From positions 1-29,221 of the IMG/VR virus record IMGVR_UViG_3300008266_000335: 29,221 nucleotides of DNA. The stretch is one strand, 5' to 3'. Positions 92-29,221 of this stretch are shown here, one piece after another. This DNA is from a virus. Position 1 is the stretch's first letter; each line of letters opens with the position of its first letter. A program made the position numbers and the translations under genes. Under the pieces are notes generated by a model. The model was not told where the DNA came from. It did not search any database and saw only the letters and a program-made list of their open reading frames with translations.

Positions 92-411
92 GGTTCTTCT
101 GCTGGTGGTGCGGGCGCGGTATAGGTAAACGCCATGCCGTTGAAAGCGTATCCATCTGGCATGGTAACAATGACGCGCACTGTCTCACCTGCTTGCTCTA
201 GTGCGTGATTGAGCGCGTTGCCAAGTAAGGTATTTTCACTGAATCGCGCCATGGTAAGCGCAAGGTCAGTATTCAGCATTTCCAGCACGTTAGGCGATGA
301 CCAAAAAAGATGATAGCACTCATTGAGCGTCAAAGCATGGTGCAAAGTCGCTTTCAATCCCCGCAAGGTAAGCTCGCGGAAATGCTGTTGTGGTGTGAGA
401 GGTTCGATCAT
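88..411 (-). CDS. Unknown 107-aa late protein
   Basis: I do not recognise this family. The protein has an alpha-helical first half (LRGLKATLHHALTLNECYHL), a second half with beta character and a short Ala/Pro/Glu tail. No signal peptide or membrane helix is evident. It overlaps the lipoprotein gene upstream by four bases (ATGA at 408-411) and the next gene downstream in the same way, so it belongs to the same late operon. It lies in the CpG-normal left segment of the window together with the fibre and lipoprotein genes. A role in tail-tip assembly or lysis is possible from position only. Confidence 0.6.
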   Translation of the reverse strand: MIEPLTPQQHFRELTLRGLKATLHHALTLNECYHLFWSSPNVLEMLNTDLALTMARFSENTLLGNALNHALEQAGETVRVIVTMPDGYAFNGMAFTYTAPAPPAEEP

Positions 412-938
412 ATTAATTGAGTAATTTCTAAGTAACTTCCTGCATTTAATCCCGCTGTTTCAACTCCGGCAGGCACACGCGCGCCCCACATCACTTTGAC
501 ATCGCCGGATGCTGCTGGGGTCAAAATGACCTCCATTCGCGTGGATAAATTTTGTCCGTTTTGATTGACCATGTTTGTCAGTGCGGTGCTTGAGCTTGGA
601 GTGACCGTAGCATTCCCCCCGCTGTTGGTTAAGTGACCCACCACTTCGCTGCCAGTCGCAGTGATAGTTGAATGGTCTAATCGTGCCACCATACCCACAG
701 TGGCGGTGCTGTTCTTGGTCAGTGTGTGAACTACAATACGGTATGTTACGCCGCTGACAACGGGCAGAACAAGTGTATCATCCGCGACCAATGAGCCACT
801 TGTGCGCGTTGCGAGCGTTATGCGCGGTATAAAAGAGTAATCCCCATACTGCCCTGCGACGGTTATTTTCGAGACTCCGCAACTGGTGAGCCCAATTACT
901 AAAATGATTGCAATTAGTAGTTTGTTAGTAGTTTTCAT
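408..938 (-). CDS. Predicted phage lipoprotein with a beta-rich domain
   Basis: I place the start at the ATG at 938, giving 176 aa that begin MKTTNKLLIAIILVIGLTSC. This is a standard lipoprotein signal: a basic N-terminus, a hydrophobic core of about 14 residues and the lipobox L-T-S-C, with Cys20 as the predicted lipidated residue. A longer reading from 1016 would overlap the fibre gene and bury the signal. The mature part is rich in Thr, Val and Gly with alternating hydrophobics, like a beta-sandwich of the kind seen in fibre or adhesin domains. The start lies five bases after the fibre stop codon, and its leader (AAATAACACC before ATG) lacks a Shine-Dalgarno. Phage lipoproteins can block receptors against superinfection; here that is only an inference. 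Confidence 0.7.
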   Translation of the reverse strand: MKTTNKLLIAIILVIGLTSCGVSKITVAGQYGDYSFIPRITLATRTSGSLVADDTLVLPVVSGVTYRIVVHTLTKNSTATVGMVARLDHSTITATGSEVVGHLTNSGGNATVTPSSSTALTNMVNQNGQNLSTRMEVILTPAASGDVKVMWGARVPAGVETAGLNAGSYLEITQLI

Positions 939-942
939 GGTG

Positions 943-2202
943 TTATTTATACATGATTCCGTAAACCCATAGGTTGCTGCTGGAGACGGCTCCGCTGACT
1001 GCGAGCGCAAGACCATTTCCGCGACGACTAAACGACACGGTCAACCCAGACGGAAGTTCTGCTGCGGTCATCGCTAGTCCTGTGAGCGGGTCGATGATGC
1101 GAAATGATGATGTGCCACCTGTGCTAGCTGACAGGATTGTGAAATAATTGTAATTTTGGCAATAAATAGAGACATTGGCGTGATTGGCTCCTGCATCGTC
1201 GTGAGTAACAACAATTTGCGTGCCAGTCATAACTGCGCTGGCGATTCCCACCGCCGATGATGCCGCCCAAGTCGATCCGTTAAAGGTTAGTATGCCTGCT
1301 GAGTTTAGACCGCTGAGATTGATGTCTGCGAACGTCGTGCCTACCGATGATCCAACGATCAATCCACGTGCCGCATACGCCTCATCTGGAACCACAATGA
1401 GAGTGCCTACTTTTGTGGCAGTTTGGCTATAATTTATCCGCACATTGTAACCCGATTGTGATACACTGGCGATATTGTATGGCTCATGCGTTGCGTCGTT
1501 TAGCATCGCCCACGTTCCAGCGGTGTTGCGGAGCACGCAGAACAATTCAAAACCAGCCGCACGATCTAGCCCTAGTGCCGTGCGTGTCGCCAGTGCCGCG
1601 CCAGTGCCGAAACTCATGCCTGTGTCGATGACAGGGCTTGTGATGGTCTTGTTTGTTAGAGTGACTGTGTTGGTCGCCGTAACCGTAATGTCACTCGTAA
1701 GCGCAACTGTGCCGCTAGCGTCTGGAAGAGTCCATGTGCGGGCGGCTGTCGTCGTTGGATACACTAAATTGACTTGGTGGACACTGAATCCTGTGATTGA
1801 GCCAGCACTTAAAGATCCGCCTTCGTTAGTTGAGAATGTGGTTGCTGCCACAATATCTCCCGAGCCGTTTCTTTTGACGATAGTGTCAGGGTCGGGGGAT
1901 GCGGTAGCCGCCGTCACGTCATCATTCGGAAACGTGGTGCGCGTATCAATGCCGCTGCGTGATAGTGAGCCGACATTGCTGCCGTTCGCGTATAGCACTT
2001 GCCCTGTCGTGAAGTTCGTCGTCGTCGCGCCTGTCACGCTGTTTGGACCGGTGGGTCCAGTAGGACCGGTGGGTCCAGTAGGACCGGTGGGTCCAGTAGG
2101 ACCGGTGTTGATCTGCACAATGGCAGGTGATCCAGTTGCTTGCAACTCCACAAGAGATGGGTTGGCACTGGCAACTCTGATTTCTACTGTGGACAGACTC
2201 AT
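943..2202 (-). CDS. Tail fibre with a collagen-like repeat
   Basis: This 419-aa protein has a short N-terminal attachment region (1-32), a collagen-like Gly-Pro-Thr repeat of about seven triplets (33-53), a beta-rich shaft full of Thr/Ser/Gly, and a C-terminal domain ending in LWVYGIMYK. The shaft includes TWTLPDASGTVALTSDI followed by TVTLTNKTITSP, motifs I know from many phage fibre shafts. Collagen triplets in phage fibres form trimeric stalks, so a trimeric receptor-binding or appendage fibre is likely. The ATG overlaps the preceding gene's stop by four bases. Codon and CpG use differ sharply from all genes to the right (see findings), a sign of recent exchange. Confidence 0.85.
   Translation of the reverse strand: MSLSTVEIRVASANPSLVELQATGSPAIVQINTGPTGPTGPTGPTGPTGPTGPNSVTGATTTNFTTGQVLYANGSNVGSLSRSGIDTRTTFPNDDVTAATASPDPDTIVKRNGSGDIVAATTFSTNEGGSLSAGSITGFSVHQVNLVYPTTTAARTWTLPDASGTVALTSDITVTATNTVTLTNKTITSPVIDTGMSFGTGAALATRTALGLDRAAGFELFCVLRNTAGTWAMLNDATHEPYNIASVSQSGYNVRINYSQTATKVGTLIVVPDEAYAARGLIVGSSVGTTFADINLSGLNSAGILTFNGSTWAASSAVGIASAVMTGTQIVVTHDDAGANHANVSIYCQNYNYFTILSASTGGTSSFRIIDPLTGLAMTAAELPSGLTVSFSRRGNGLALAVSGAVSSSNLWVYGIMYK
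2045..2107. repeat. 18-bp tandem repeat encoding Gly-Pro-Thr triplets
   Basis: Three and a half perfect copies of an 18-bp unit (ggaccggtgggtccagta) start at 2045, 2063, 2081 and 2099. Each unit encodes two collagen triplets on the minus strand. Exact copies at the DNA level imply recent expansion or contraction, which would change the fibre stalk length. Confidence 0.9.
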
Positions 2203-2525
2203 GGGGTGTTTTTCTTTCTCAGTTTGGTTGTGCCATAGCCAATCACGATTGGTGCATTGGATCCCTCAGTGATCTGGATGTCCCACCCATAAATCCCTGC
2301 AGCAACATCTGCTGTGTTGACAGACACCACCACCACACCATTTGCCGGTGTGGGGATTGTGGGTGCCAGATCCAGTGCCACTGCTGCTGTTGGATTGGTC
2401 TTGATGACACCGGCAGCAGTGTAGCCAGTCAGGTCAAAGGGGGTGCCGTCTGACTGCAAACAGGTCAAGGACATGGAGATGTCCTCCCCCACCCAAAACT
2501 CAAAATCTGCTCCTGTATATGCCAT
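2199..2525 (-). CDS. Small beta-rich baseplate or fibre-adaptor protein
   Basis: The protein is 108 aa from the ATG at 2525. A GTG at 2534 would add three residues and overlap the upstream stop as GTGA, so the start is uncertain. The sequence reads as alternating strands with GEDISMSLTC, the motif FDLTGYTAAGVIK and the end IGYGTTKLRKK. This pattern matches small Ig-like or BppU N-terminal-like domains found next to phage fibres, where they anchor the fibre to the baseplate. The family call is from memory of the pattern and is moderate. It is the first gene on the CpG-depleted side of the composition break at about 2.2 kb. Confidence 0.65.
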   Translation of the reverse strand: MAYTGADFEFWVGEDISMSLTCLQSDGTPFDLTGYTAAGVIKTNPTAAVALDLAPTIPTPANGVVVVSVNTADVAAGIYGWDIQITEGSNAPIVIGYGTTKLRKKNTP

Positions 2526-2530
2526 GCGCT

Positions 2531-3223
2531 TCACCCTAAGGATTTTGGTTGAGATTGCAAGAATTTATTGAGTTTTTGCATGGAGATTGTGACCCCCTCT
2601 GGTGTGCGGGGGGCATTGCCAAAAGTGCAAACAGAAAACTTTTGGCAGTCATCTGGGTGGAAAACCTTTGGCACTGCCGTGAATGCTCCACCGGTGGGGG
2701 TGAAGTTGTGCATTTTGTGGGGCAGACCCAACTCACACACTGCCCCCCAGATGGCAAGGTCCTCTGGCACATCATCAACATTCTCCCCATCTGAAAGTGC
2801 AATATAGACCTCCACGGCAGCTGCCATGGTCAGACTGTAGCAGCACCCAAATGCCTCACGCCTGTTGACCTCCAGCGAGCAAACACCGGTGGAGATTTCC
2901 AAAAAGGGTGATGCATCAAGGATGATGGTGTCACAATCCAGTTTGACTGCAAGTTTTGACCGGCAGAGGATCATGGCATGGATCATTGACCTCACAATCC
3001 CCACTGCACACTCAGTGCCATTGAGGTTGCCATTGCGGTCAAAAGTGGTGAGGATGTGATGCCCTCCATTTTCTTGGATCCATGTGACCATGTGCCTTGG
3101 CAGTGGTGCGTGTGAGTCATCAAACACATATGGCACCAGACCGGCAGCAATGGCACCCTTGATGCACTCCCTCAGTGGCAGGGCATCCCCAGAAAAACAG
3201 AAAATACAAGCAGGTGTTTTCAT
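2531..3223 (-). CDS. Glycosyltransferase-like protein in the tail module
   Basis: The protein has 230 aa. It starts with a Rossmann-like strand and helix (CIFCFSGDALPLRECIKGA), then FDD at 34-36, then VKLDCDTIIL at 93-102. Its D96-C-D98 is a DxD motif after a hydrophobic strand, the metal and nucleotide-sugar site of GT-A fold glycosyltransferases. A later GGAF (about 173) also fits a GT-A core. The gene is coupled by four-base overlaps to a tail protein on one side and a baseplate-like protein on the other. It may glycosylate tail proteins or modify a host surface sugar. The fold call is mine; donor and acceptor cannot be read. Cysteines are more frequent than in its neighbours. Confidence 0.6.
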   Translation of the reverse strand: MKTPACIFCFSGDALPLRECIKGAIAAGLVPYVFDDSHAPLPRHMVTWIQENGGHHILTTFDRNGNLNGTECAVGIVRSMIHAMILCRSKLAVKLDCDTIILDASPFLEISTGVCSLEVNRREAFGCCYSLTMAAAVEVYIALSDGENVDDVPEDLAIWGAVCELGLPHKMHNFTPTGGAFTAVPKVFHPDDCQKFSVCTFGNAPRTPEGVTISMQKLNKFLQSQPKSLG

Positions 3224-4140
3224 CTGTAGAGTATGGCACCATTGACAAATTGGGTGATGATGCCCCCGCCATCTGAGTGTGCAATGGGGACCACCTCCAG
3301 AGTGGCAGAGTTTGCTGGGAGTGCTGTGGCAAAATAGGGACCTCTGGCAGTGGAGAAAGCACCCCCAGACAGCACAATCTCCACATACACAAAACCCTCT
3401 TTTGGCATCCTGCCCAGCAGGGACACCAACATCACAAAAGATGCACCATCATTGTAGGTGGTGGCACCGTAGGCAGTGGAGTCATATGTGTTGGTGGGAT
3501 CTCTGCCATTGCTGGCAGCAGTTGCCACCACATCAATGCCATCATCAATCTCACCAGTGGTGCTGTTGATGGTCCACCCTGTGTTGGTCCATGTGTCAAA
3601 GGTTGCTTCTGTGTAAATGCCATCTTGAGCAGTGCCGGTGGTGATCTCAACCAGCACAGTGGAAGCAGTTGCACCCCCCTCAAAGGTGGTGGTGAGTGTG
3701 AAGGGTGTGCCTCCATTGTAGGTGTCCTCCCCAAAAGTGGTTGAGGAGAAGGTGCCAACTGGGGCAATTGTGTAGGAGGATGAAAAGGTGGCAATGACAT
3801 CACTGCCAATCACAATTTCTGCAGTGTTGGCAGCATCATCCCCAATGATCTCATTGCCAAAGTTGTCCACCCAAGTCTCTGTGCCGGTTCGCTCAAAGTA
3901 GCCAATGGGGGCAGCAGTGCCAGAGAGGGTGCCGGTGGTTCCCATTGACTCACCACTGCCCCCCACAAAGAACAGACCACCGGTGTTGACCATCCTGAGT
4001 CTTGGACCATTGCCAATGTTGGACAGCAGTGTCTCACCCAGACGCACTGTGGCAGTGGTGCCAGCAGAAAGGTCCACCACTGTCCCTGCTGCCACCAGCA
4101 GGTTGCCTTGGTTGTCAATAGATACATCAAACTGGTTCAT
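3220..4140 (-). CDS. Beta-rich tail protein with two internal repeats
   Basis: This is a 306-aa Thr/Gly/Ser-rich protein without a signal peptide. Two segments repeat: about 133-166 (STTFGEDTYNGG, then VLVEI) and about 221-255 (STAYGATTYNDG, then VYVEI). Both follow S-T-x-x-G-x-x-T-Y-N-x-G-x-x-F and end in V-x-V-E-I, consistent with two copies of a small beta domain. Its place directly after the tail hub gene and before the fibre end suggests a tail-tip, baseplate or receptor-binding component. The start is the ATG overlapping the upstream stop (ATGA at 4137-4140). The exact function is unknown. Confidence 0.65.
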   Translation of the reverse strand: MNQFDVSIDNQGNLLVAAGTVVDLSAGTTATVRLGETLLSNIGNGPRLRMVNTGGLFFVGGSGESMGTTGTLSGTAAPIGYFERTGTETWVDNFGNEIIGDDAANTAEIVIGSDVIATFSSSYTIAPVGTFSSTTFGEDTYNGGTPFTLTTTFEGGATASTVLVEITTGTAQDGIYTEATFDTWTNTGWTINSTTGEIDDGIDVVATAASNGRDPTNTYDSTAYGATTYNDGASFVMLVSLLGRMPKEGFVYVEIVLSGGAFSTARGPYFATALPANSATLEVVPIAHSDGGGIITQFVNGAILYR

Positions 4141-6080
4141 GTGAAAACGATGTTGTCTTGTGGGGTTTTGCGGATCCGGTCTGTGAGAGTGCGATAATCA
4201 ACCCTTGCTGGGGTGCCAAGGTTGATGGTGGTCTGCCCAGTGAAAAGATTGAGAGACTCACCAGCAACCATTGCACCCATGGTGGCATGTGCGGTCAAGG
4301 ATCCAATCACATTGATTTTCTTGCCACTATAACGCACGGCACCGGCAGTGTCCTCCGTGGTGGTGATTTGTCCCTCATAGACCACAAAACTCTGGGCAGC
4401 AAGTAGGTTGGCAGCAAGGTCCACCGGTGGTGCAAGAAAGTTGTAATCTGCGGCACGATATAGAGGGTGACCCTGCAGTTGGTAAGTCTGCCCACTTGCT
4501 GGTTTTTGGGCAGTTGACCATGTGCTGGTCAGTGTTGCTGCCCTTGTGCTGCCATCATAAGCAGTGATGGTGTCAGTGAAGGATGCCCCACCAGTGACTT
4601 TCCATGACACCGTCAACCCAACATAAAAATCATCCACAGAACTGGCAGCAGTTGCCAGCACGATGGTGGTGGTGTTGCTGCCAGTGCGAGCAGTGCCGGT
4701 CCAATGGTAGGAAAGGGGTGCAAGGTAGCCAGTGGCATTCAATGCCCCAGTGTAAAGGTTGGCAGTCTGTGCTGCCGTGCGGGTGCCTCTAAAACCAGTT
4801 TGTGCCAATGCAATTGCTACTGTTGAGTACCATGCCGGAGGATTGAACACATCAGTGGAGATGTAGCCACCTGCGGCATTGTAGTAGTTGATTTGAGACA
4901 CCCATGTGTCATAGTATGTGCCACTGAGGGTCACAGGAATCAGTCCATACTCCTCCACTGCCCAGTCTGGCACATTCTCTGCGATGGTGTAGAACATGCC
5001 GGTGGGATCCACTGGATCACCTTCTGCATTGCTCAGTGTGCTTGCAGCAACCACAAAAGAGGATGACTGTGTGGGCAGATTGGCAATCTGGGCAGCATAC
5101 GTCCAAGAGTATGCACTGAGAGATGCACCAACAGTGGTGATGCCCAATGCCCTTGCAGCATCAAACTGCCGGTCTGCTGCAACTGCAAATGCACCCAGAC
5201 TGGAGGCACTGCGGATGGTTGCCCTCTCAAACAAGTCATTTGGCAGAAAGGTGTCCAACTCCGGACCACCCATGGTGATCACTTGGATCTTGCCAGTTGC
5301 CGGTGTGCCACTGCTCTGGGTTTGGTATGTTGTGCGTCCAAGGGTGTCACGTTCCACATATGGCAGCACAACTTGATTGACCTTGAGATCAAACACAGGG
5401 TTGATGCTCATGGCATCAATGGGGGATGTGCCAACAGTCAAATCAACACCGGTGGCAACTCCTCTGCGGGTCACATGCAGAGTGGGTGTGGCAGTTGAAT
5501 AGTCAAAGTAGGTCATCACATCCGGCACAATCCGCACCAACTCAGTCAAGACCCCTGCACAGGATGCTTGGTTGAGTGTGATTCTTGGCAGGTCAAAAAA
5601 CGTGGCAACTGTGGACCCCCCAGCAATGTTTGCCATTGGTGCGCCCAAGGTGACTGAGGTGTTGATGGCAGTCTGGATGGCAGTGGTGAGACTGACCCCA
5701 GCACCGGCAGTGCCAAAAACCCCAGTCAAACGGTCTGCAGTGGATCCACCACTGTCTGTTTGGGGGGTCATGTAGGCAATCCGGTCCAACCACCACCATG
5801 GACCACTCACTGTGATGCTGAGATCACTGGTGTTCTGGGTCTTGATGTCAGTGACGGTGCCGGTGAAGAATAGTATGCCGGATCTGTAGAGTTTGATGGT
5901 CTGCCCCAACTCCGGTGGGGTGTAGGTTGCCAGTGATTGTGTGGTCACATTGACCACCAGTTCATCCACCCCCACTGACTGGAAGGTCAACTCAGCATTG
6001 GACACCTGCCGATGCTCCATGGTTTGAACAGTGGCATCCCACGCTTTTCCTGCCTCACCTGCTATTGTCCACACTGGCAT
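4137..6080 (-). CDS. Tail hub / baseplate protein (gpD or gp27-like)
   Basis: This protein of 647 aa follows the tape-measure gene, where the distal tail and hub genes of long-tailed phages lie. The N-terminal third has the strand-rich pattern of hub domains, with GQTIKLYRSGILFFTGTVTD at about 59-78, which matches the usual G-x-x-V-x-L-x-x-x-x-x-x-F-x-G-x-V phrase. A second hub-like phrase is PDVMTYFDYS followed by TLHVTRRG, near 186-207. The remainder is Thr/Ser/Tyr-rich beta sequence, probably extra surface domains. The product would close the tail tube and hold the tip proteins. No lysozyme motif is visible. The start ATG at 6080 lies one base past the tape-measure stop. Confidence 0.7.
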   Translation of the reverse strand: MPVWTIAGEAGKAWDATVQTMEHRQVSNAELTFQSVGVDELVVNVTTQSLATYTPPELGQTIKLYRSGILFFTGTVTDIKTQNTSDLSITVSGPWWWLDRIAYMTPQTDSGGSTADRLTGVFGTAGAGVSLTTAIQTAINTSVTLGAPMANIAGGSTVATFFDLPRITLNQASCAGVLTELVRIVPDVMTYFDYSTATPTLHVTRRGVATGVDLTVGTSPIDAMSINPVFDLKVNQVVLPYVERDTLGRTTYQTQSSGTPATGKIQVITMGGPELDTFLPNDLFERATIRSASSLGAFAVAADRQFDAARALGITTVGASLSAYSWTYAAQIANLPTQSSSFVVAASTLSNAEGDPVDPTGMFYTIAENVPDWAVEEYGLIPVTLSGTYYDTWVSQINYYNAAGGYISTDVFNPPAWYSTVAIALAQTGFRGTRTAAQTANLYTGALNATGYLAPLSYHWTGTARTGSNTTTIVLATAASSVDDFYVGLTVSWKVTGGASFTDTITAYDGSTRAATLTSTWSTAQKPASGQTYQLQGHPLYRAADYNFLAPPVDLAANLLAAQSFVVYEGQITTTEDTAGAVRYSGKKINVIGSLTAHATMGAMVAGESLNLFTGQTTINLGTPARVDYRTLTDRIRKTPQDNIVFT

Positions 6081-6081
6081 A

Positions 6082-7506
6082 CTATTTGATGTTTTGGATC
6101 CTCACCTGCAACCCTTTGATCTCCTGACTCATTGCACTCATCTTGAGTGCCATCTGATTGTTCACATCAATCAAGGACCTCACGGTGTTAAGTGATTCCG
6201 TTTGACCTGTTTTGAGAGAGTTGAGAAGAAAGTTGAGGTTCTGGGAGATCTTGATTTGATCCTGTGCAGTGATCTGCCCATCTGCTGCCATCTGTGCAAT
6301 CTCTGCTTTTGCTTGTTGCTGCAGTGGGGTGATGGCATCAACCTTGGCAATCTGCTCTGTGATCTCCTTGGCATCAGTGGTGATCTGGTTGGCAGCAGCA
6401 GTCAGGTCTTGTGTCCTCTTGGACAGATCTGCTTTCTGGGTGATTTCTGAGATGGTTGCTTCAATCTGTTGCACATTGGCATCACGTTCAGCCTCTGCCA
6501 CCACCAAGGCATTGTTGATCTTCTCAATCCGGTCTGGGGTTGAGTTAATGATCCTGTAAATGTTGGCAATCTGGGCAGCAACCTTCTCCTTGTCTGCTTC
6601 TGATGTCTGTGTCTCAAGTGATTTGAACCCTTCACCCTGATCCCCACTGCGGATGGCAGATGCATCTCTTGCTCTGTTGCGGTTCAGTTCAGCAAAAACC
6701 TCTTGCTGCTTTGCCTCCAGTTTTGCCAAGGATGCCTGTGCCAGCACTGCCTCAAACTCAAGTTGGGATTTTTGCTCTTTGAGTGCTTGCAGTTTTTTCT
6801 CCTCATTCTCAATCTTTGATTGCTGGGCAGCAATGGCAGCTGTGGTTGCTGCTGCTGCTGCTTGGTCCCTCAATGCCTGTAGTGCCTTCTCCTCATCCAC
6901 CACCAGACCAATGGTTTTGAGGTATTTGACAGAGGCAACCTCCAATGCAAGGTTGGATTCAATCAGTTTGGCATTTGTCTCTGCTTGCAGGTTGCGGTTC
7001 TCTGCCAGTGTTGCTTCTGCAGTTCTGACTGCATCTGCTCTGTCTTTGGTTCTGTCCAGTGCAGCATTGTAGCGGTCAACAGCATTCTTGGCATCATCAG
7101 CAAATGCCTCCTTGAGTTTGCCAGACATATCACCAATCTTGTCAGTGACATCCTCAGTTTGGTGCCATAAGTCATAAAATGCCTCACCCAGTTTTTTGCC
7201 CAGTCCAACACCCACAGCAAGTGCGGCACCAAGGATCCCCATGTTGCCAGCAACAGTCAGCAATGCCTCACCAAATTGGGAGGCAGCACTGTCCCCAAGA
7301 TCTATGCTGCTGGTCATTGACTGCACCTGCCCACCAGTCATGCTGGCAGCTTTTCCCATCTTGGTGGTGCTGGTGGTGACAGTGTCTGTGGCAGTGACAG
7401 ACTTGTTGGTGGCAGTGGTCAGACTCTCAACAGCAGCAGTTGTCTGCTTGGCACCGGTGGTGTCAGCAGTTGTCTTGATGTTGATGTCTACTTTTTTAGC
7501 TGCCAT
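6082..7506 (-). CDS. Tail tape-measure protein
   Basis: The product is 474 aa from the ATG at 7506. A TTG at 7515 would add three residues. The N-terminus is Thr/Lys-rich; a hydrophobic stretch follows at about 82-105 (LLTVAGNMGILGAALAVGVG). Nearly all of the rest is predicted coiled coil rich in Ala, Glu, Gln and Lys. This profile and the position between the tube and hub genes mark a tape measure, which sets tail length. At roughly 0.15 nm per residue it predicts a tail of about 70 nm, short for a siphovirus. No peptidase domain is visible. The gene overlaps the upstream one by about ten bases. Confidence 0.85.
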   Translation of the reverse strand: MAAKKVDINIKTTADTTGAKQTTAAVESLTTATNKSVTATDTVTTSTTKMGKAASMTGGQVQSMTSSIDLGDSAASQFGEALLTVAGNMGILGAALAVGVGLGKKLGEAFYDLWHQTEDVTDKIGDMSGKLKEAFADDAKNAVDRYNAALDRTKDRADAVRTAEATLAENRNLQAETNAKLIESNLALEVASVKYLKTIGLVVDEEKALQALRDQAAAAATTAAIAAQQSKIENEEKKLQALKEQKSQLEFEAVLAQASLAKLEAKQQEVFAELNRNRARDASAIRSGDQGEGFKSLETQTSEADKEKVAAQIANIYRIINSTPDRIEKINNALVVAEAERDANVQQIEATISEITQKADLSKRTQDLTAAANQITTDAKEITEQIAKVDAITPLQQQAKAEIAQMAADGQITAQDQIKISQNLNFLLNSLKTGQTESLNTVRSLIDVNNQMALKMSAMSQEIKGLQVRIQNIK

Positions 7507-8245
7507 ATTTGCCAAGGATTGTGACGTTGTGGGTGATGGTCACCCCCTGCTGTGAGAGATCCACCAATGCACTCACATCATTCAGAGTGACAGCATTGGA
7601 GATGGTTGGGGCAACACCGGCAGTGGTGTTGGCACTGGTGGCACCGGTGATGGTGGGGTTGGGGGATCCATTGGTGGTGACCAATGCCAGTGTGCCGTCA
7701 TTGGCAGCCGCATTGCGCTTGGTGATGATCACGGTGGACCCAGAACTGCTTGCCATGTTGGACACAGAGAATGCGGTGTTGGCATTCAGTGATGCTGCAA
7801 TCTTGGGTGCATAAAGGGTGGGAGTGTCCCCACTCAACACTGCAGTAGATCCACTGGCATTGCCATCAGCAGCAGTCAATGCCCAGTTGATGTTGCCATC
7901 AATGCTGGCATTTCCTGCACAGGTCAGTGTCTCAACTTGTCTGGTGCCATCTGCCGTGAGTCTGCCCAGTGTGGCAGTCATATCAAGTTGGTTGAGCAGA
8001 CCTTGTGGAGTGTTCAACAAGTAAGTCTCAGCCTCTGCGATGGTGGAGAAGGTCAGCACAGAGGAGAAGGTCACAGTGGTTGCTGCTCCTCCCCTGTAGA
8101 ACTGCACAAACTCTGCTGCCTCAATGTATTGAGATTGCTGAAAGTTTGCCTGTGACCCAATCCTCAAGTTGGACGTTTCACTCCTCTGCCCATCGCCACC
8201 AGCAAGGACAAAGAGAACAGATCCGCGATGAATGGAAACATACAT
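7496..8245 (-). CDS. Tail protein with a phage tail repeat-type beta domain
   Basis: The protein has 249 aa. The first third contains FVQFYRGGAATTVTFS and AEAETYLLN, a phrase I know from small tail-associated proteins (R-G-x then a beta pair, then A-E-x-F-L). The second half includes DTPTLYAPKIAASLNANT, a short VIIT strand, AAANDGTLALV and ATSANTTAG. This matches a beta domain often found at the C-terminus of phage major tail proteins. It occupies the slot between tube and tape measure where most siphoviruses carry the two frameshifted tail assembly chaperones, which are not seen here. It is probably structural (tube decoration or tail completion). Confidence 0.6.
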   Translation of the reverse strand: MYVSIHRGSVLFVLAGGDGQRSETSNLRIGSQANFQQSQYIEAAEFVQFYRGGAATTVTFSSVLTFSTIAEAETYLLNTPQGLLNQLDMTATLGRLTADGTRQVETLTCAGNASIDGNINWALTAADGNASGSTAVLSGDTPTLYAPKIAASLNANTAFSVSNMASSSGSTVIITKRNAAANDGTLALVTTNGSPNPTITGATSANTTAGVAPTISNAVTLNDVSALVDLSQQGVTITHNVTILGKYGS

Positions 8246-20143: not shown

Positions 20144-22486
20144 ATGACCAAAATACAAAACATCACCTTGCCACCGGCAGGGCAGGGACACAACGCAGGT
20201 CTGCCAGCAGCAGCAAGAAAATGCCAGAATGCCGGTGCCACAAAAGAGGAGGCACTGGAGCATCTCCGGTCCATTTACGACTCCACCAGAGCAGACCACC
20301 TCAGTGCCACACAACGTGCTGTGGACCTTGTCTGGTCAAGTTCTGTGCCAGATGAGGATGACCGGCAGACCTTGCCAGCAGCAGACCAAAACCTCATTGA
20401 CAGACTGCCCCTCACCCCCACTTCTGTCATTGTGGAGGCATCCCCGCACAACCCCAAGATCAAAACCATCAGCATCATCAAAAACCTTTTCCTGCAGGAT
20501 GAGATCATTGGGATCCAAGAGGTCAGCAAACAGAGTGCCACCCTGCTGGTGGTGGAGGACATTGATGCCCTGCACCCACACCCAGCACTTGACCAGTTCA
20601 AATTTCTCAACCCTTCCACATTCAAGTCAATTGAGGGTGCATGGATCCCAGACCAAAAGAATGGTGGGCAAAAACTCAGCACCAGATGCAATGCCAATGT
20701 TGCGAACAGACCTTACATGCTGCTGGAGATGGACAGCAAGGAGGAGAAGGTGGTGCAGCAGTTCTCCACCTTTGCCATGGGTCTGTCCAAGTTCATCCCA
20801 CTGCGGATGGTGGTGGACACCGGTGGCAAGTCTCTGCACTTCTGGTTTGATGCCAGACAAGCAACACCGGCAGAGGTGGATGCCATCTTCACCATTGCCT
20901 GTTTGTATGGAGCAGACAAGCAGATGGCAGTCCGGTCACAGGTGGCAAGGATGCCCAATGTCTCAGCAGCAGCAGATGGAAGATCTGCCCAGCGGGTGAT
21001 CTACTTTGACCCCAAGGGTCAGAACTACCCAACCCACATTGCCAAGGGCAAATGGGATGTGCTGGGGTTTGAGGCATCAATCACCACCTGCAGAGATGTT
21101 CTCTACTACTACCATGGCGGGAAGTATTACACAGAAAGCATCAGTGGCAAGTGGATCTCACTGTCTGGCAGATCCATGGCACGGCAGTTGATTGATGTGG
21201 GCATGAGAGGCACCAAGGTGCAGGGTGAGGGTCAATCTCCAGTTGACACCTTCATTGCTGGTGTGGAGATGCACCACCCCATTGATGCCATCATGCAGGG
21301 TGCCAGTGGACGGTGTGCCGGTGTGCATTCAGAGAATGGGTATGACTTTCTGGTCATGCGCTCCCCCACAGTGATCAAACCCAGAAAGGGTGACTGGGGG
21401 ACAATCAAAAAACTGCTGACCCACATGTTTGACCACACCCCCCACCAGTTGGATGTGTTCTTTGGTTGGTGCAGTGCCAGTGCAAAGGCATTCAGGAATG
21501 ATGGCAAGAGGCAATCAAAGTTTTCCCCCTGTCAGTTTTTGCACATCTTGGGTGAGGTCAACAGTGGCAAGACCTTGCTGCTGGACAACATCCTGCCCCA
21601 CCTTCTGGGTGGACGGTCCACCAATGCAGACAGCATGTTTTCAGAACATGGTGCAGCATTCAACTCTGACCTGTTCCAGTGTGAACTGCTTTTTCTGGAT
21701 GACACCAGTGTGTTGATGCCAGATTTCAAAAGCCGGTCCAAACTGGGTGAACAGATCAAAGCACTCACTGTTGGCACCGGAGGTGACTACCACCAAAAGT
21801 TTGCAGACAAGATCCCTGTCAAACCATGGTGGCGTTTTGTGAGATTGATGAACTTGGAGAACAGCAGCATCAGCACCCTGCCCCAGATGAATGAGGGCAT
21901 CAAGGACAAGATCATCCTGCTCAAAGCACAGAGCATGGTGGGTGGTCTGATTGACAACACCACTGCTGGTTGGTATGAACCAACCCAGCAGAAGATCCTG
22001 AGTGAGTTGCCAGCATTTCTGCACTTCTTGCTGGAGGAGTTTATGATCCCTGCCCACATTGTGGATCCGGCAAAACGGTTCCCCACAGTGTCCTACCACA
22101 ACCCAGCAGTGTTGGACCTGATCAATGAAGGCAGTCCGGAGCATTCACTGATTGAACGCATTGATGGTGCTGCACACGGCAGAATGTTCTGCCCACTGTT
22201 TGAGCAAGAGGATCAACCCCAGCAGTGGACCGGCACAGTGGGGGCATTGTTTGAGATCCTCAGTGATGTTGGCACACGCAACTCACAGGTGCAATTCAGC
22301 CGGTTCTGCCCATCACCCAAGGTGCTGATCAGTCAACTCCAGCACCTGTCCAAGACCCACCCAGAGCGTGTGACCTACTCTGGTGATGAGTCATCACAGA
22401 TCACACCAAAAAAGAAAAATGGTGCATTCTATTGGGTCATTGCACCCAAAAAAGAGGTTGAGGTCACCCCAGAAGATTGTTTGTAA
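20144..22486 (+). CDS. Replicative primase / SF3 helicase
   Basis: The product has 780 aa. A helical N-terminus (AGLPAAARKCQNAGATKEEA) precedes a primase-like part with MLLEMDS (E195, D197) and TGGKSLHFWFD, where S230-L-H232 forms the S-x-H motif of archaeo-eukaryotic-type primases. Walker A GEVNSGKT is at 470-477 and Walker B CELLFLDD ends at D519-D520, as in SF3 helicases. The last 130 residues look like a winged helix (VGALFEILSDVG, then ISQLQHLSKTHPERV). It would start DNA replication at the adjacent repeat region. The end is acidic and closes PEDCL, similar to the nuclease gene further down. The leader before ATG is C/A-rich with no Shine-Dalgarno. It is the first gene of the right arm. 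Confidence 0.85.
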   Translation: MTKIQNITLPPAGQGHNAGLPAAARKCQNAGATKEEALEHLRSIYDSTRADHLSATQRAVDLVWSSSVPDEDDRQTLPAADQNLIDRLPLTPTSVIVEASPHNPKIKTISIIKNLFLQDEIIGIQEVSKQSATLLVVEDIDALHPHPALDQFKFLNPSTFKSIEGAWIPDQKNGGQKLSTRCNANVANRPYMLLEMDSKEEKVVQQFSTFAMGLSKFIPLRMVVDTGGKSLHFWFDARQATPAEVDAIFTIACLYGADKQMAVRSQVARMPNVSAAADGRSAQRVIYFDPKGQNYPTHIAKGKWDVLGFEASITTCRDVLYYYHGGKYYTESISGKWISLSGRSMARQLIDVGMRGTKVQGEGQSPVDTFIAGVEMHHPIDAIMQGASGRCAGVHSENGYDFLVMRSPTVIKPRKGDWGTIKKLLTHMFDHTPHQLDVFFGWCSASAKAFRNDGKRQSKFSPCQFLHILGEVNSGKTLLLDNILPHLLGGRSTNADSMFSEHGAAFNSDLFQCELLFLDDTSVLMPDFKSRSKLGEQIKALTVGTGGDYHQKFADKIPVKPWWRFVRLMNLENSSISTLPQMNEGIKDKIILLKAQSMVGGLIDNTTAGWYEPTQQKILSELPAFLHFLLEEFMIPAHIVDPAKRFPTVSYHNPAVLDLINEGSPEHSLIERIDGAAHGRMFCPLFEQEDQPQQWTGTVGALFEILSDVGTRNSQVQFSRFCPSPKVLISQLQHLSKTHPERVTYSGDESSQITPKKKNGAFYWVIAPKKEVEVTPEDCL

Positions 22487-23581: not shown

Positions 23582-23743
23582 ATGAACCAAGAAACAAAAA
23601 AACTGCTGGGGGTCCTACCTCACCCAATCAACAACAACCACCCCAAAGATCCACAGATGCCGGTGGTGGGTCTGCTTTTCATCTATTTCATGGGGATCCT
23701 TTCTGGCATCTCCTTCTCACTCCTTGTCTCTCTTTTCTTATGA
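23582..23743 (+). CDS. Small membrane protein (53 aa)
   Basis: The ATG at 23582 follows CACTGAACCAT, the same leader end used by the gene at 25864. The first half is polar (MNQETKKLLGVLPHPINNN) and the last 26 residues form one transmembrane helix with small residues (VVGLLFIYFMGILSGISFS). The protein ends LVSLFL directly at the membrane, so an N-in or N-out bitopic protein is predicted. ATGA at 23740-23743 couples it to the alanine-repeat gene. A holin-like, superinfection-exclusion or host-takeover role is conceivable, but nothing decides it. Confidence 0.65.
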   Translation: MNQETKKLLGVLPHPINNNHPKDPQMPVVGLLFIYFMGILSGISFSLLVSLFL

Positions 23744-24309
23744 GTGCAGACTACACCATCACAGAGTTTTGCCAGACACACAATGCTTGCAAATCCGGCA
23801 GAGACTGGGCAATGCAAAACTGCCAGACCATGCAAGAAGTGTGGCAAAAAGCATCACCACAAGACCTCATCTGGGTTGCCATTCGCAAGGGTGTCTTGAC
23901 TGACAAAGAACTGCGTCTGTTTGCAGTTTTCTGTGCCAGACAAAACCAGCACTTGTTGACAGACCCACGCAGTCTGGCAGCAATTGAGGTTGCAGAAAAA
24001 TATGCAATGGGGGATGCAACAGATGCAGAGTTGTCTGATGCTGCTGATCGTGCTGCTGCTGCTGCTGATGCTGATGCTGATGCTGCTGATGCTGCTCGTG
24101 CTGCTGCTCGTGCTGCTGCTGCTGCTGCTGCTCGTGCTGCTGCTGCTGCTGATGCTGCTCGTGCTGCTGCTCGTGCTGCTGCTGCTGCTGCTGCTGCTGC
24201 TGATGCTGCTGCTCGTGCTGCTGCTGCTGATGCTCGTGCTGCTGCTGCTGCTCGTGCTACTCAAGTTGGCTATTTACTCAAAAACACAATGCCAAATTTT
24301 TCAAAGTAA
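23740..24309 (+). CDS. Alanine-repeat protein resembling repeat-companion/immunity-type proteins
   Basis: The product has 189 aa. The first 98 residues contain PQDLIWVAIRKG, KELRLFAVFCAR and DPRSLAAIEVAEKYAMGDAT. I recognise this order (W, then L-R-L-F-A-x-x-C-A-R, then D-x-R-S and E-x-A-E-x-Y-x-x-G) from proteins common in planctomycetes, Verrucomicrobia and some phages, where it precedes Ala-rich tails. Residues 100-173 are only Ala, Asp and Arg and would form a long alanine helix. All 74 codons in it are GCT, GAT or CGT, unlike the GCA preference elsewhere (separate repeat entry). Function unknown; some relatives are labelled putative immunity proteins. Confidence 0.7.
   Translation: MSADYTITEFCQTHNACKSGRDWAMQNCQTMQEVWQKASPQDLIWVAIRKGVLTDKELRLFAVFCARQNQHLLTDPRSLAAIEVAEKYAMGDATDAELSDAADRAAAAADADADAADAARAAARAAAAAAARAAAAADAARAAARAAAAAAAAADAAARAAAADARAAAAARATQVGYLLKNTMPNFSK
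24037..24258 (+). repeat. 222-bp GCT/GAT/CGT triplet tract
   Basis: Seventy-four consecutive codons are GCT, with scattered GAT and CGT, all in the Ala frame of the host gene. Sub-blocks such as GCTCGTGCTGCT recur, so the tract has grown by slippage or unequal recombination. The reverse strand reads AGC repeats. Length is expected to vary between relatives. Confidence 0.95.
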
Positions 24310-25863: not shown

Positions 25864-26076
25864 ATGACAACTACAGCACTGAAACCATACAGAGATTACA
25901 TCGCAATCATTGACAATGATGAGGCACACCCAATTGAGCTACGCGCAAGAGATGCTGCTGATGCTAAGAAAAAAGCAAGGCGTTACATGAGTGATGTGGT
26001 TGGTCACTCTGTCAAGTATGAGGGTCCCTACAATCTCAAGGTCAGACTCGCAACCCCAGAAGCACCACAAGATTGA
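25864..26076 (+). CDS. Unknown 70-aa protein in moron-like unit 2
   Basis: I do not recognise a specific family. It starts with a strand (YRDYIAIIDNDEAHPIELRA) followed by a basic helix (ARDAADAKKKARRYMSDVVG) and two more strands. The beta-alpha-beta shape with A-x-x-A-x-K-K-A-R is common among tiny phage proteins. It has its own candidate promoter and an identical terminator to unit 1 seven bases after its stop. It lies between the nuclease and the single-strand binding protein genes. An accessory role is inferred from the unit structure only. Confidence 0.7.
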   Translation: MTTTALKPYRDYIAIIDNDEAHPIELRARDAADAKKKARRYMSDVVGHSVKYEGPYNLKVRLATPEAPQD

Positions 26077-27136: not shown

Positions 27137-29221
27137 ATGACCACACCAGACACCTACCATCTTGATTTTGAGACATTCTCACCAGAGGATCTCAAGTCTG
27201 TGGGCGCATTCAAATATGCAGCACACCCAGAGACAGAGATTCTTGTGGTGGCAATTGCCAAGAATGATGAGACACCACTGGTGTGGTCAGTTCTGGATGA
27301 CAACATTGACGCATTGATGTTGCTGTCAGAAGCAGTGCAGAGTGGTGCAGCAATCTGGGCGCATAATGCCCAGTTTGAGTTTGCCATCACCAAGCACCTA
27401 TTTGCCAAGACCTTTGGCATGACTCCACCGGCACTGACCCAGTGGCACTGCACAGCAGCACTGTGCAGGTTGGCAGCAATCCCATCCTCACTGGCAGGTG
27501 CCGGTGATTTTCTTGAGATCCCCATGCCCAAAGACAAGGATGGGGTCAAACTCATCCAGCAGTTCTGCTGCCCACGCAAACCCACCAAGGGTGACCCACG
27601 CACACGCATTCATGCAGCAGATGCACCGGAGGAGTTCCAGAGGTTCATTGACTACTGTGTGCGCGATGTGGAGGCAGAGAGACTGGTCCACACGGCACTG
27701 GGCAGACTGGCAAAGCAGTCACACCCCACCACCGCACACTTTCACGCAGACCTCAGGATGAATGACAGAGGCATCCCACTCAACATTGATGCCCTGCGTC
27801 ACGCAGAAAGTCTCATTGGTGAATACACCAGCAGACTGATTCCAATTTTCCAATCTCAGGTGGCACACCCCACTGATGTGATCACCCTGCCGGTCACCAA
27901 ACTACGCAAAGCACCCAAGCAGGTCAGCATCACTGCTGGGTTCAACCCATCGCAAAATGAGATGATGCAGTGCTGGTTGAGGGGCAGAGGTTTTACTGGC
28001 AAGGATCTGCAAGCAGACACTGTGACTGCGTGGTTGACCCCACCACTGAGGGACAGATTGACCCCAGAGGCAGTGGCAGCATTGACCACATATTCACTCA
28101 TTGGATCAGCAGCAGTCAAGAAGATCCCTGCCATGCTCCAGATGGCAGAGGCAGATGGTCATGTGAGAGGTGCCTTGATGATCTATGGAGCAGAGAGAAC
28201 ACACCGGTGGACCGGCAAAGGGATCCAACCACAGAACTATGCCAGACCCACAATCTCCTTCTCTGATCTGGCATATGCTTGTGTATGTGCCGGTGCCAGC
28301 ATTGATGAACTGGAAGCACTCTTTGGTGACCTGTTTCAAGTCATGATCTCTGTGATCCGCAACTTTATTCAGCCCACCACCGGCATGGTGCTGCAAGCAG
28401 ACTACTCTGCTATTGAGGCAAGGGTGGCACCATGGTTGGTGGGTGAGGAGAGGACCCTGCAAAAGTTCAGAGAAAATGCCCCCATCTATGAGATCATGGC
28501 ATCCATGATCTTTGGCAAACCAGTTGGTGAGATCACCAAGGATGAGAGGTTCATTGGCAAGCAAGCAGTGTTGGGTTGCTCCTACAACATGGGCAGACCC
28601 AAATTCAGAGCAACCTGTGAGTCTTACGGATTCACACCCACCCCACAGATGGTTGCTGACTACAAACCAAGGCACAAGGCATTCATTGATGGCAAGGATC
28701 CAAAAGCCATGGGGTGGAAAACTCTGGACCCACAGACCCCAGAGGAGTGGGCAAATTTTTGTTATGATGATCTGGCAGACCGTGCGGTCAGCAGTTGGAG
28801 AAAAGCCAACCCCATTGTGGTCAACAGTTGGAGGCAGTTGGATGATGCTGCCAAGGCAGCAATCAACACACCCACCACTATGCACACAGTTGGCAAGTTG
28901 ACCCTTGCCACAATCCCCATTGCCAACTTCACTGCCCTTTGCATCAAGTTGCCCTCTGGTCATTACTTGATGTACCCAAAAGCAGAGGTGGTGCCAAATG
29001 AGAAAAGGACAGACACCCAGATGCACATTTATGGCACCCAGATCCGTTTCTGGGGGGTGATCCCCAACACCGGTGGCACATGGGGATGGTGCTACACCTA
29101 TGGGGGGAAACTCCTTGAGAACTGCACCCAAGCATGTGCTGGTGACATCATGCGTGAGGGGATGCTGGCAGCAGAGGGTGCTGGTTACAAACCATTCATG
29201 CTGGTGCATGATGAGATGCTC
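27137..29221 (+). CDS. Family A DNA polymerase with 3'-5' exonuclease (partial, runs off window)
   Basis: The frame is open for 695 codons from the ATG at 27137 to the end. The exonuclease domain shows LDFETF with D10 and E12, WAHNAQFEF, and YCVRDVEAE with its Tyr and Asp, so proofreading residues are present. The polymerase domain has THRWTGKGIQPQNYARP, motif A DYSAIEARVAPW (D422), an O-helix region RFIGKQAVLGCSYNMG, and motif C VHDE (H691-D692-E693), two codons before the window ends. It is the phage replicase and follows the usual DUF2800-DUF2815 order. About the last 60 residues expected after motif C are missing only because of the cut. Confidence 0.92.
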   Translation, partial: MTTPDTYHLDFETFSPEDLKSVGAFKYAAHPETEILVVAIAKNDETPLVWSVLDDNIDALMLLSEAVQSGAAIWAHNAQFEFAITKHLFAKTFGMTPPALTQWHCTAALCRLAAIPSSLAGAGDFLEIPMPKDKDGVKLIQQFCCPRKPTKGDPRTRIHAADAPEEFQRFIDYCVRDVEAERLVHTALGRLAKQSHPTTAHFHADLRMNDRGIPLNIDALRHAESLIGEYTSRLIPIFQSQVAHPTDVITLPVTKLRKAPKQVSITAGFNPSQNEMMQCWLRGRGFTGKDLQADTVTAWLTPPLRDRLTPEAVAALTTYSLIGSAAVKKIPAMLQMAEADGHVRGALMIYGAERTHRWTGKGIQPQNYARPTISFSDLAYACVCAGASIDELEALFGDLFQVMISVIRNFIQPTTGMVLQADYSAIEARVAPWLVGEERTLQKFRENAPIYEIMASMIFGKPVGEITKDERFIGKQAVLGCSYNMGRPKFRATCESYGFTPTPQMVADYKPRHKAFIDGKDPKAMGWKTLDPQTPEEWANFCYDDLADRAVSSWRKANPIVVNSWRQLDDAAKAAINTPTTMHTVGKLTLATIPIANFTALCIKLPSGHYLMYPKAEVVPNEKRTDTQMHIYGTQIRFWGVIPNTGGTWGWCYTYGGKLLENCTQACAGDIMREGMLAAEGAGYKPFMLVHDEML

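Follow-up and report, generated by a model that had tools for sequence, protein, structure and literature searches.

A putative imported tail fibre cassette in a CpG- and TpA-depleted tailed phage genome

Gene content of the window

The stretch of DNA analysed here (the window) comprises the 29,221 bases of the IMG/VR record IMGVR_UViG_3300008266_000335. Its left end encodes, on the minus strand, a protein of 107 aa (88-411), a lipoprotein (408-938), and a tail fibre of 419 aa (943-2202), the last identified by PHROG tail fibre matches. The gene upstream of the fibre (2199-2534, minus strand), which resembles phrog_1084 and an L-shaped tail fibre assembly protein, belongs to the core side and is 80-85% identical in the clade described below. 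The minus strand of the core carries a Mu-type portal gene (PF06074, 6e-63) together with terminase, head, and tail genes, and the plus strand carries exonuclease, SSB, DNA polymerase-like, and other genes. No MuA transposase or MuB was found among the PHROG matches of the subset of plus-strand genes scanned, in a record that may be incomplete. No Pfam fibre domain was hit in the window fibre, and megablast and blastn comparisons of the left 6 kb and of positions 2199-6080 with named phages returned no match. A protein with a long low-complexity run rich in Ala, Asp, and Arg is encoded at 23740-24309, where the local GpC observed/expected ratio (o/e) is 2.57.

Dinucleotide composition

The CpG o/e was 1.07 for positions 1-2198 and 0.25 for positions 2199-29221. 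In 300-bp windows it ranged from 0.97 to 1.23 up to position 2100 and from 0.05 to 0.58 thereafter, and was flat on either side of the step. TpA stepped at the same place, from 0.74 at the left to 0.23 at the right, and CA/TG rose across it from 1.33 to 1.76. The original prediction had reported a sharp CpG break from counts made by eye, and these counts were exact (25 CpG in 1861-2040 and 4 in 21421-22020). The break is genuine and is shared by TpA, the low state continues to position 29221 as had been proposed, and the 300-bp plot, named beforehand as the check, gave an abrupt drop in place of a smooth profile.

Synonymous codon usage differed strongly between the core and the left end: GCG supplied 2% versus 35% of Ala codons, ACG 3% versus 24% of Thr codons, and TTA plus CTA 3% versus 39% of Leu codons. 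Relative to the expectation from synonymous shuffling, CpG at codon boundaries was 0.19 in the core and 1.00 at the left, and CpG was 0.26 in the 1,168 bases right of the step that were treated as intergenic. The step is thus one of DNA and not of protein, because synonymous codons containing CpG or TpA are nearly absent at the right and CpG is also scarce there at codon boundaries and between genes; amino-acid composition as its cause was ruled out by the synonymous usage and the codon-boundary CpG.

Position of the joint

A first-order model placed the break at 2104 (range 2029-2124), and second- and third-order models placed it at 2039-2045, with a third-order optimum at 2045 and a 3-nat range of 2029-2048. 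The first-order estimate lies farther to the right because the four CpGs at 2049-2103 all fall within CCGG, a context that the core does not avoid. The module of normal CpG and TpA therefore occupies positions 1-2044, as delimited by composition, relatives, and donor matches, with its far border outside the window, and the depleted core occupies 2046-29221 (CpG o/e 0.25, TpA 0.23). The four-base ATGA stop/start overlap on the minus strand at 2199-2202, which had been taken as the site of the break, is real, but the low state starts to its left. The joint does not coincide with a gene boundary; it lies about 155 bp inside the fibre gene. Position 2045 is the left end of an 18-bp perfect tandem repeat (2045-2107, minus strand, 3.5 copies) detected by repeat analysis, which encodes the collagen-like motif GPTGPT. 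It adjoins the conserved, CpG-poor N-terminal anchor of the fibre (33 aa, 2104-2202, minus strand), defined by the alignment of relatives and the break models. The fibre gene is chimeric, in that the anchor and the collagen-like repeat are compositionally core and the imported part makes up the rest.

Relatives with the same switch

Ten viral loci were retrieved as relatives with a core tail protein. In L002-L005, which are IMG/VR phages, the structural genes were mostly 68-91% identical to those of the window at the amino acid level, one tail gene being more diverged. The N-terminal 32-46 aa of the fibre were 82-97% identical in L002, L003, and L005, which had no match to the window past that point, and the anchor of L004 was 66% identical over 73 aa. 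All four loci are depleted and all turn to normal CpG just past the same fibre anchor; in L005, low CpG returns after a module of about 2 kb. Both sides of the step do not, then, co-occur with matching composition, an outcome named beforehand as contrary to an import; the four relatives show the same switch. The 120 aa that follow the anchor in L002-L005 form a shaft that is common to them and absent from the window. This shaft showed 79-85% DNA identity among the four loci, compared with 89-93% in the adjacent core, and a CpG of 1.1-1.5.

Donor-like phages and the fate of CpG

When the L002-L005 shaft was used as the query, phages L063 and L064 were retrieved, which lack comparable core similarity and have a CpG of 1.31 and 0.89, respectively. 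The record of L004 (G003) matched L063 over 1,565 bp at 82.5%, with fibre blocks at 81-89% and no long core match; genes for the fibre shaft, a member of the 107-aa family, a membrane protein, and a protein of 157 aa follow the same order in both. The modules of G004 and G001 were mostly 82-92% identical in DNA to L063 or L064. For the window itself, donor matches at the DNA level reached only 71-76% and concerned two parts of the lipoprotein gene; it is homologous to phages with unrelated cores only at the lipoprotein gene, the 107-aa gene, and a short part of the fibre. Homologues of the 107-aa gene lie beside fibre genes in many phages, the majority of which have unrelated cores; several more members of the family come from phages whose cores show no similarity to that of the window. 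The G003 and G004 copies were 79-89% identical to those of some unrelated-core phages, versus 45-47% to that of the window. A scan of viral contigs with the fibre C-terminus gave two weak hits only and no near donor, alignment of the fibre to 289 genomes from the Luteolibacter order gave none, and a module gene gave one weak hit in 337 genomes of Luteolibacter's phylum.

Between the modules and the donor-like copies, 145 of 214 CpGs were kept in each direction, and this symmetry means that the modules show no erosion. In the window terminase compared with that of sisters L030/L031, 17 of 85 were kept. The sequence CCGG was avoided in the G003 module (1 versus 9 expected) and in L063 (4 versus 47 expected), and was above expectation in the G003 core (93 versus 64). 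The single GGCC of G003, and likewise that of G004, falls in the module. A second island of normal CpG with small ORFs was observed in L017 at about 6400-7600 (about 23.4-24.6 kb in G003); one of its ORFs resembles window positions 25864-26076, and 27 bases are identical to L063.

The chimeric lipoprotein

In the lipoprotein gene (408-938, minus strand), a lipobox-bearing N-terminus (about 820-938) is joined to a fibre-tip domain (about 408-818). The signal peptide with the lipobox LTSC was read in the translation of 408-938 (LIAIILVIGLTSC). In the longer frame, residues 65-201 matched the C-terminal tip of the L064 fibre at 77% identity, and the stretch 28-65 matched, at 71%, a 43-aa lipoprotein that L064 encodes separately. 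Since the DNA matches of the two parts abut at 818/821, the gene is a fusion of two cassette parts. This fusion is most likely a by-product of cassette shuffling, functional or not, and a receptor-decoy role would be a guess. Named phage records contained no match to the protein, PDB gave none of significance, and a scan of viral contigs yielded none that was confirmed. An AlphaFold model had a mean pLDDT of 52.6, and fold matches were set aside.

Depletion of the core and likely host

The terminase CpG was 0.23 in the window, 0.32-0.52 in relatives at 92-95% identity, 0.84-0.87 in sisters L030 and L031 (89-90% identity), and about 1.2 in others at 77-80%. CpG was therefore lost within this clade specifically, after it had separated from these sisters; TpA was low (0.24-0.50) already in the others. 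The main replacements for lost CpG in the window terminase were TG and CA, along with AG at arginine codons (CGN to AGN). Within the core (2046-29221), CCGG is spared (139 sites, o/e 1.22), CCGA/TCGG stands at 0.03, and TCGA is almost absent; the clade relatives spare CCGG and TCGA. The whole window is free of GGCC (0 versus about 93 expected in the core), the core contains neither CCWGG (CCAGG/CCTGG) nor CCSGG (CCCGG/CCGGG), and AGCT, GTAC, CTAG, and RGCY sites are rare. The absence of GGCC, CCWGG, and CCSGG and the rarity of AGCT, GTAC, CTAG, and RGCY sites form a strong pattern that looks like restriction-site avoidance. The general loss of CpG and TpA may reflect methylation with deamination, selection, or both. 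Simple 5mC deamination does not by itself account for the loss of TpA, the sparing of CCGG, or the arginine CGN to AGN changes, and host composition as the cause is unsupported among the cellular contigs with related terminases that were sampled (CpG 0.96-1.37).

The nearest terminases in cellular genomes were mostly from Verrucomicrobiota (Luteolibacter prophages, 58-64% aa identity), and the hosts are likely Verrucomicrobiota, to judge from this gene. Akkermansia phages Chambord, DTMo-2021a, and Chantilly are also terminase relatives (39-45% aa). Unlike the window, these phages and prophages have normal CpG (0.97-1.13).

Origin of the left end

We regard it as very probable that the window derives from a depleted tailed phage that has exchanged its receptor-binding end for a cassette belonging to a different gene pool of phages; the host of this phage is probably a member of the Verrucomicrobiota. 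The original prediction of a foreign left end is borne out by the composition, by the switch in four relatives, by the DNA identity, mostly 80-92%, of the relatives' modules to phages whose cores are unrelated, and by the symmetric fates of CpG. Recombination, presumably at or near the tandem repeat, would have left the conserved anchor and collagen-like repeat in place and exchanged the shaft and tip of the fibre along with the downstream lipoprotein and 107-aa genes. The depleting pressure would have yet to erode the newcomer, and for that reason the junction would still be visible as a step. Given the nature of a fibre, the swap may have altered host range.

The module could instead be a long-term resident at a fibre locus exempt from CpG and TpA removal, through different exposure or gene conversion with undepleted relatives. 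Such an exemption would account for normal CpG at this locus in all five clade members seen, for the homologous normal-CpG shaft of L002-L005, and for the symmetric module-donor CpG fate. However, the shaft alleles diverge more than the core and are as close to the unrelated L063/L064 (80-86%) as to each other, the window's own shaft is unlike theirs, the gene content of the modules varies (G003 has extra genes in the order of L063), and G003 has another normal-CpG island elsewhere, so that we consider long residence unlikely. A perfect tandem repeat at the junction of a public virus record that is possibly a fragment might also suggest an assembly chimera of two phages, but the same architecture recurs in four further contigs that carry different metagenome IDs, an open frame crosses the joint, and the anchor is conserved, which makes an artefact highly improbable.

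Comparison with known systems and implications

Exchange of tail fibre genes among unrelated phages has long been known (Haggard-Ljungquist et al. 1992, as cited in PMC3368898). Insofar as it is represented there, that exchange is like the present case in its constant N-terminal attachment part, swapped distal part, and donors with unrelated cores; the swap in the window differs in being marked by a dinucleotide step and in a cassette that reaches beyond the fibre and includes the lipoprotein-tip chimera. In the collagen-like prophage side tail fibres of E. coli O157:H7, a Gly-X-Y repeat similarly joins modular fibre domains, whose combinations are attributed to recombination (PMC3368898), whereas the window has a short GPT repeat only, on the core side of the break.

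The fibre swap itself is familiar; less ordinary are a depleted clade with nearly normal sisters and the chimeric lipoprotein. Depletion of CpG and TpA is mostly discussed for eukaryotic viruses, and no description of a phage depleted in both was found among the open-licence papers listed by literature searches. It is conceivable, though rather doubtful, that an unrecognised, CCGG-sparing DNA-level pressure in a bacterial host removed CpG and TpA throughout the genome of a narrow clade and, in addition, that the imported lipoprotein presents its fibre tip on the infected cell and blocks receptors against phages with the same tip, as a decoy for superinfection exclusion.

Interruptions in homology are the usual evidence for mosaicism in phages. 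A resident dinucleotide signature acts as a natural dye that makes imports visible even without donors, and imports that are uneroded give relative timing. With sisters at 89-90% terminase identity that are nearly normal, the depleted clade makes the cause of CpG and TpA removal in a dsDNA phage testable.
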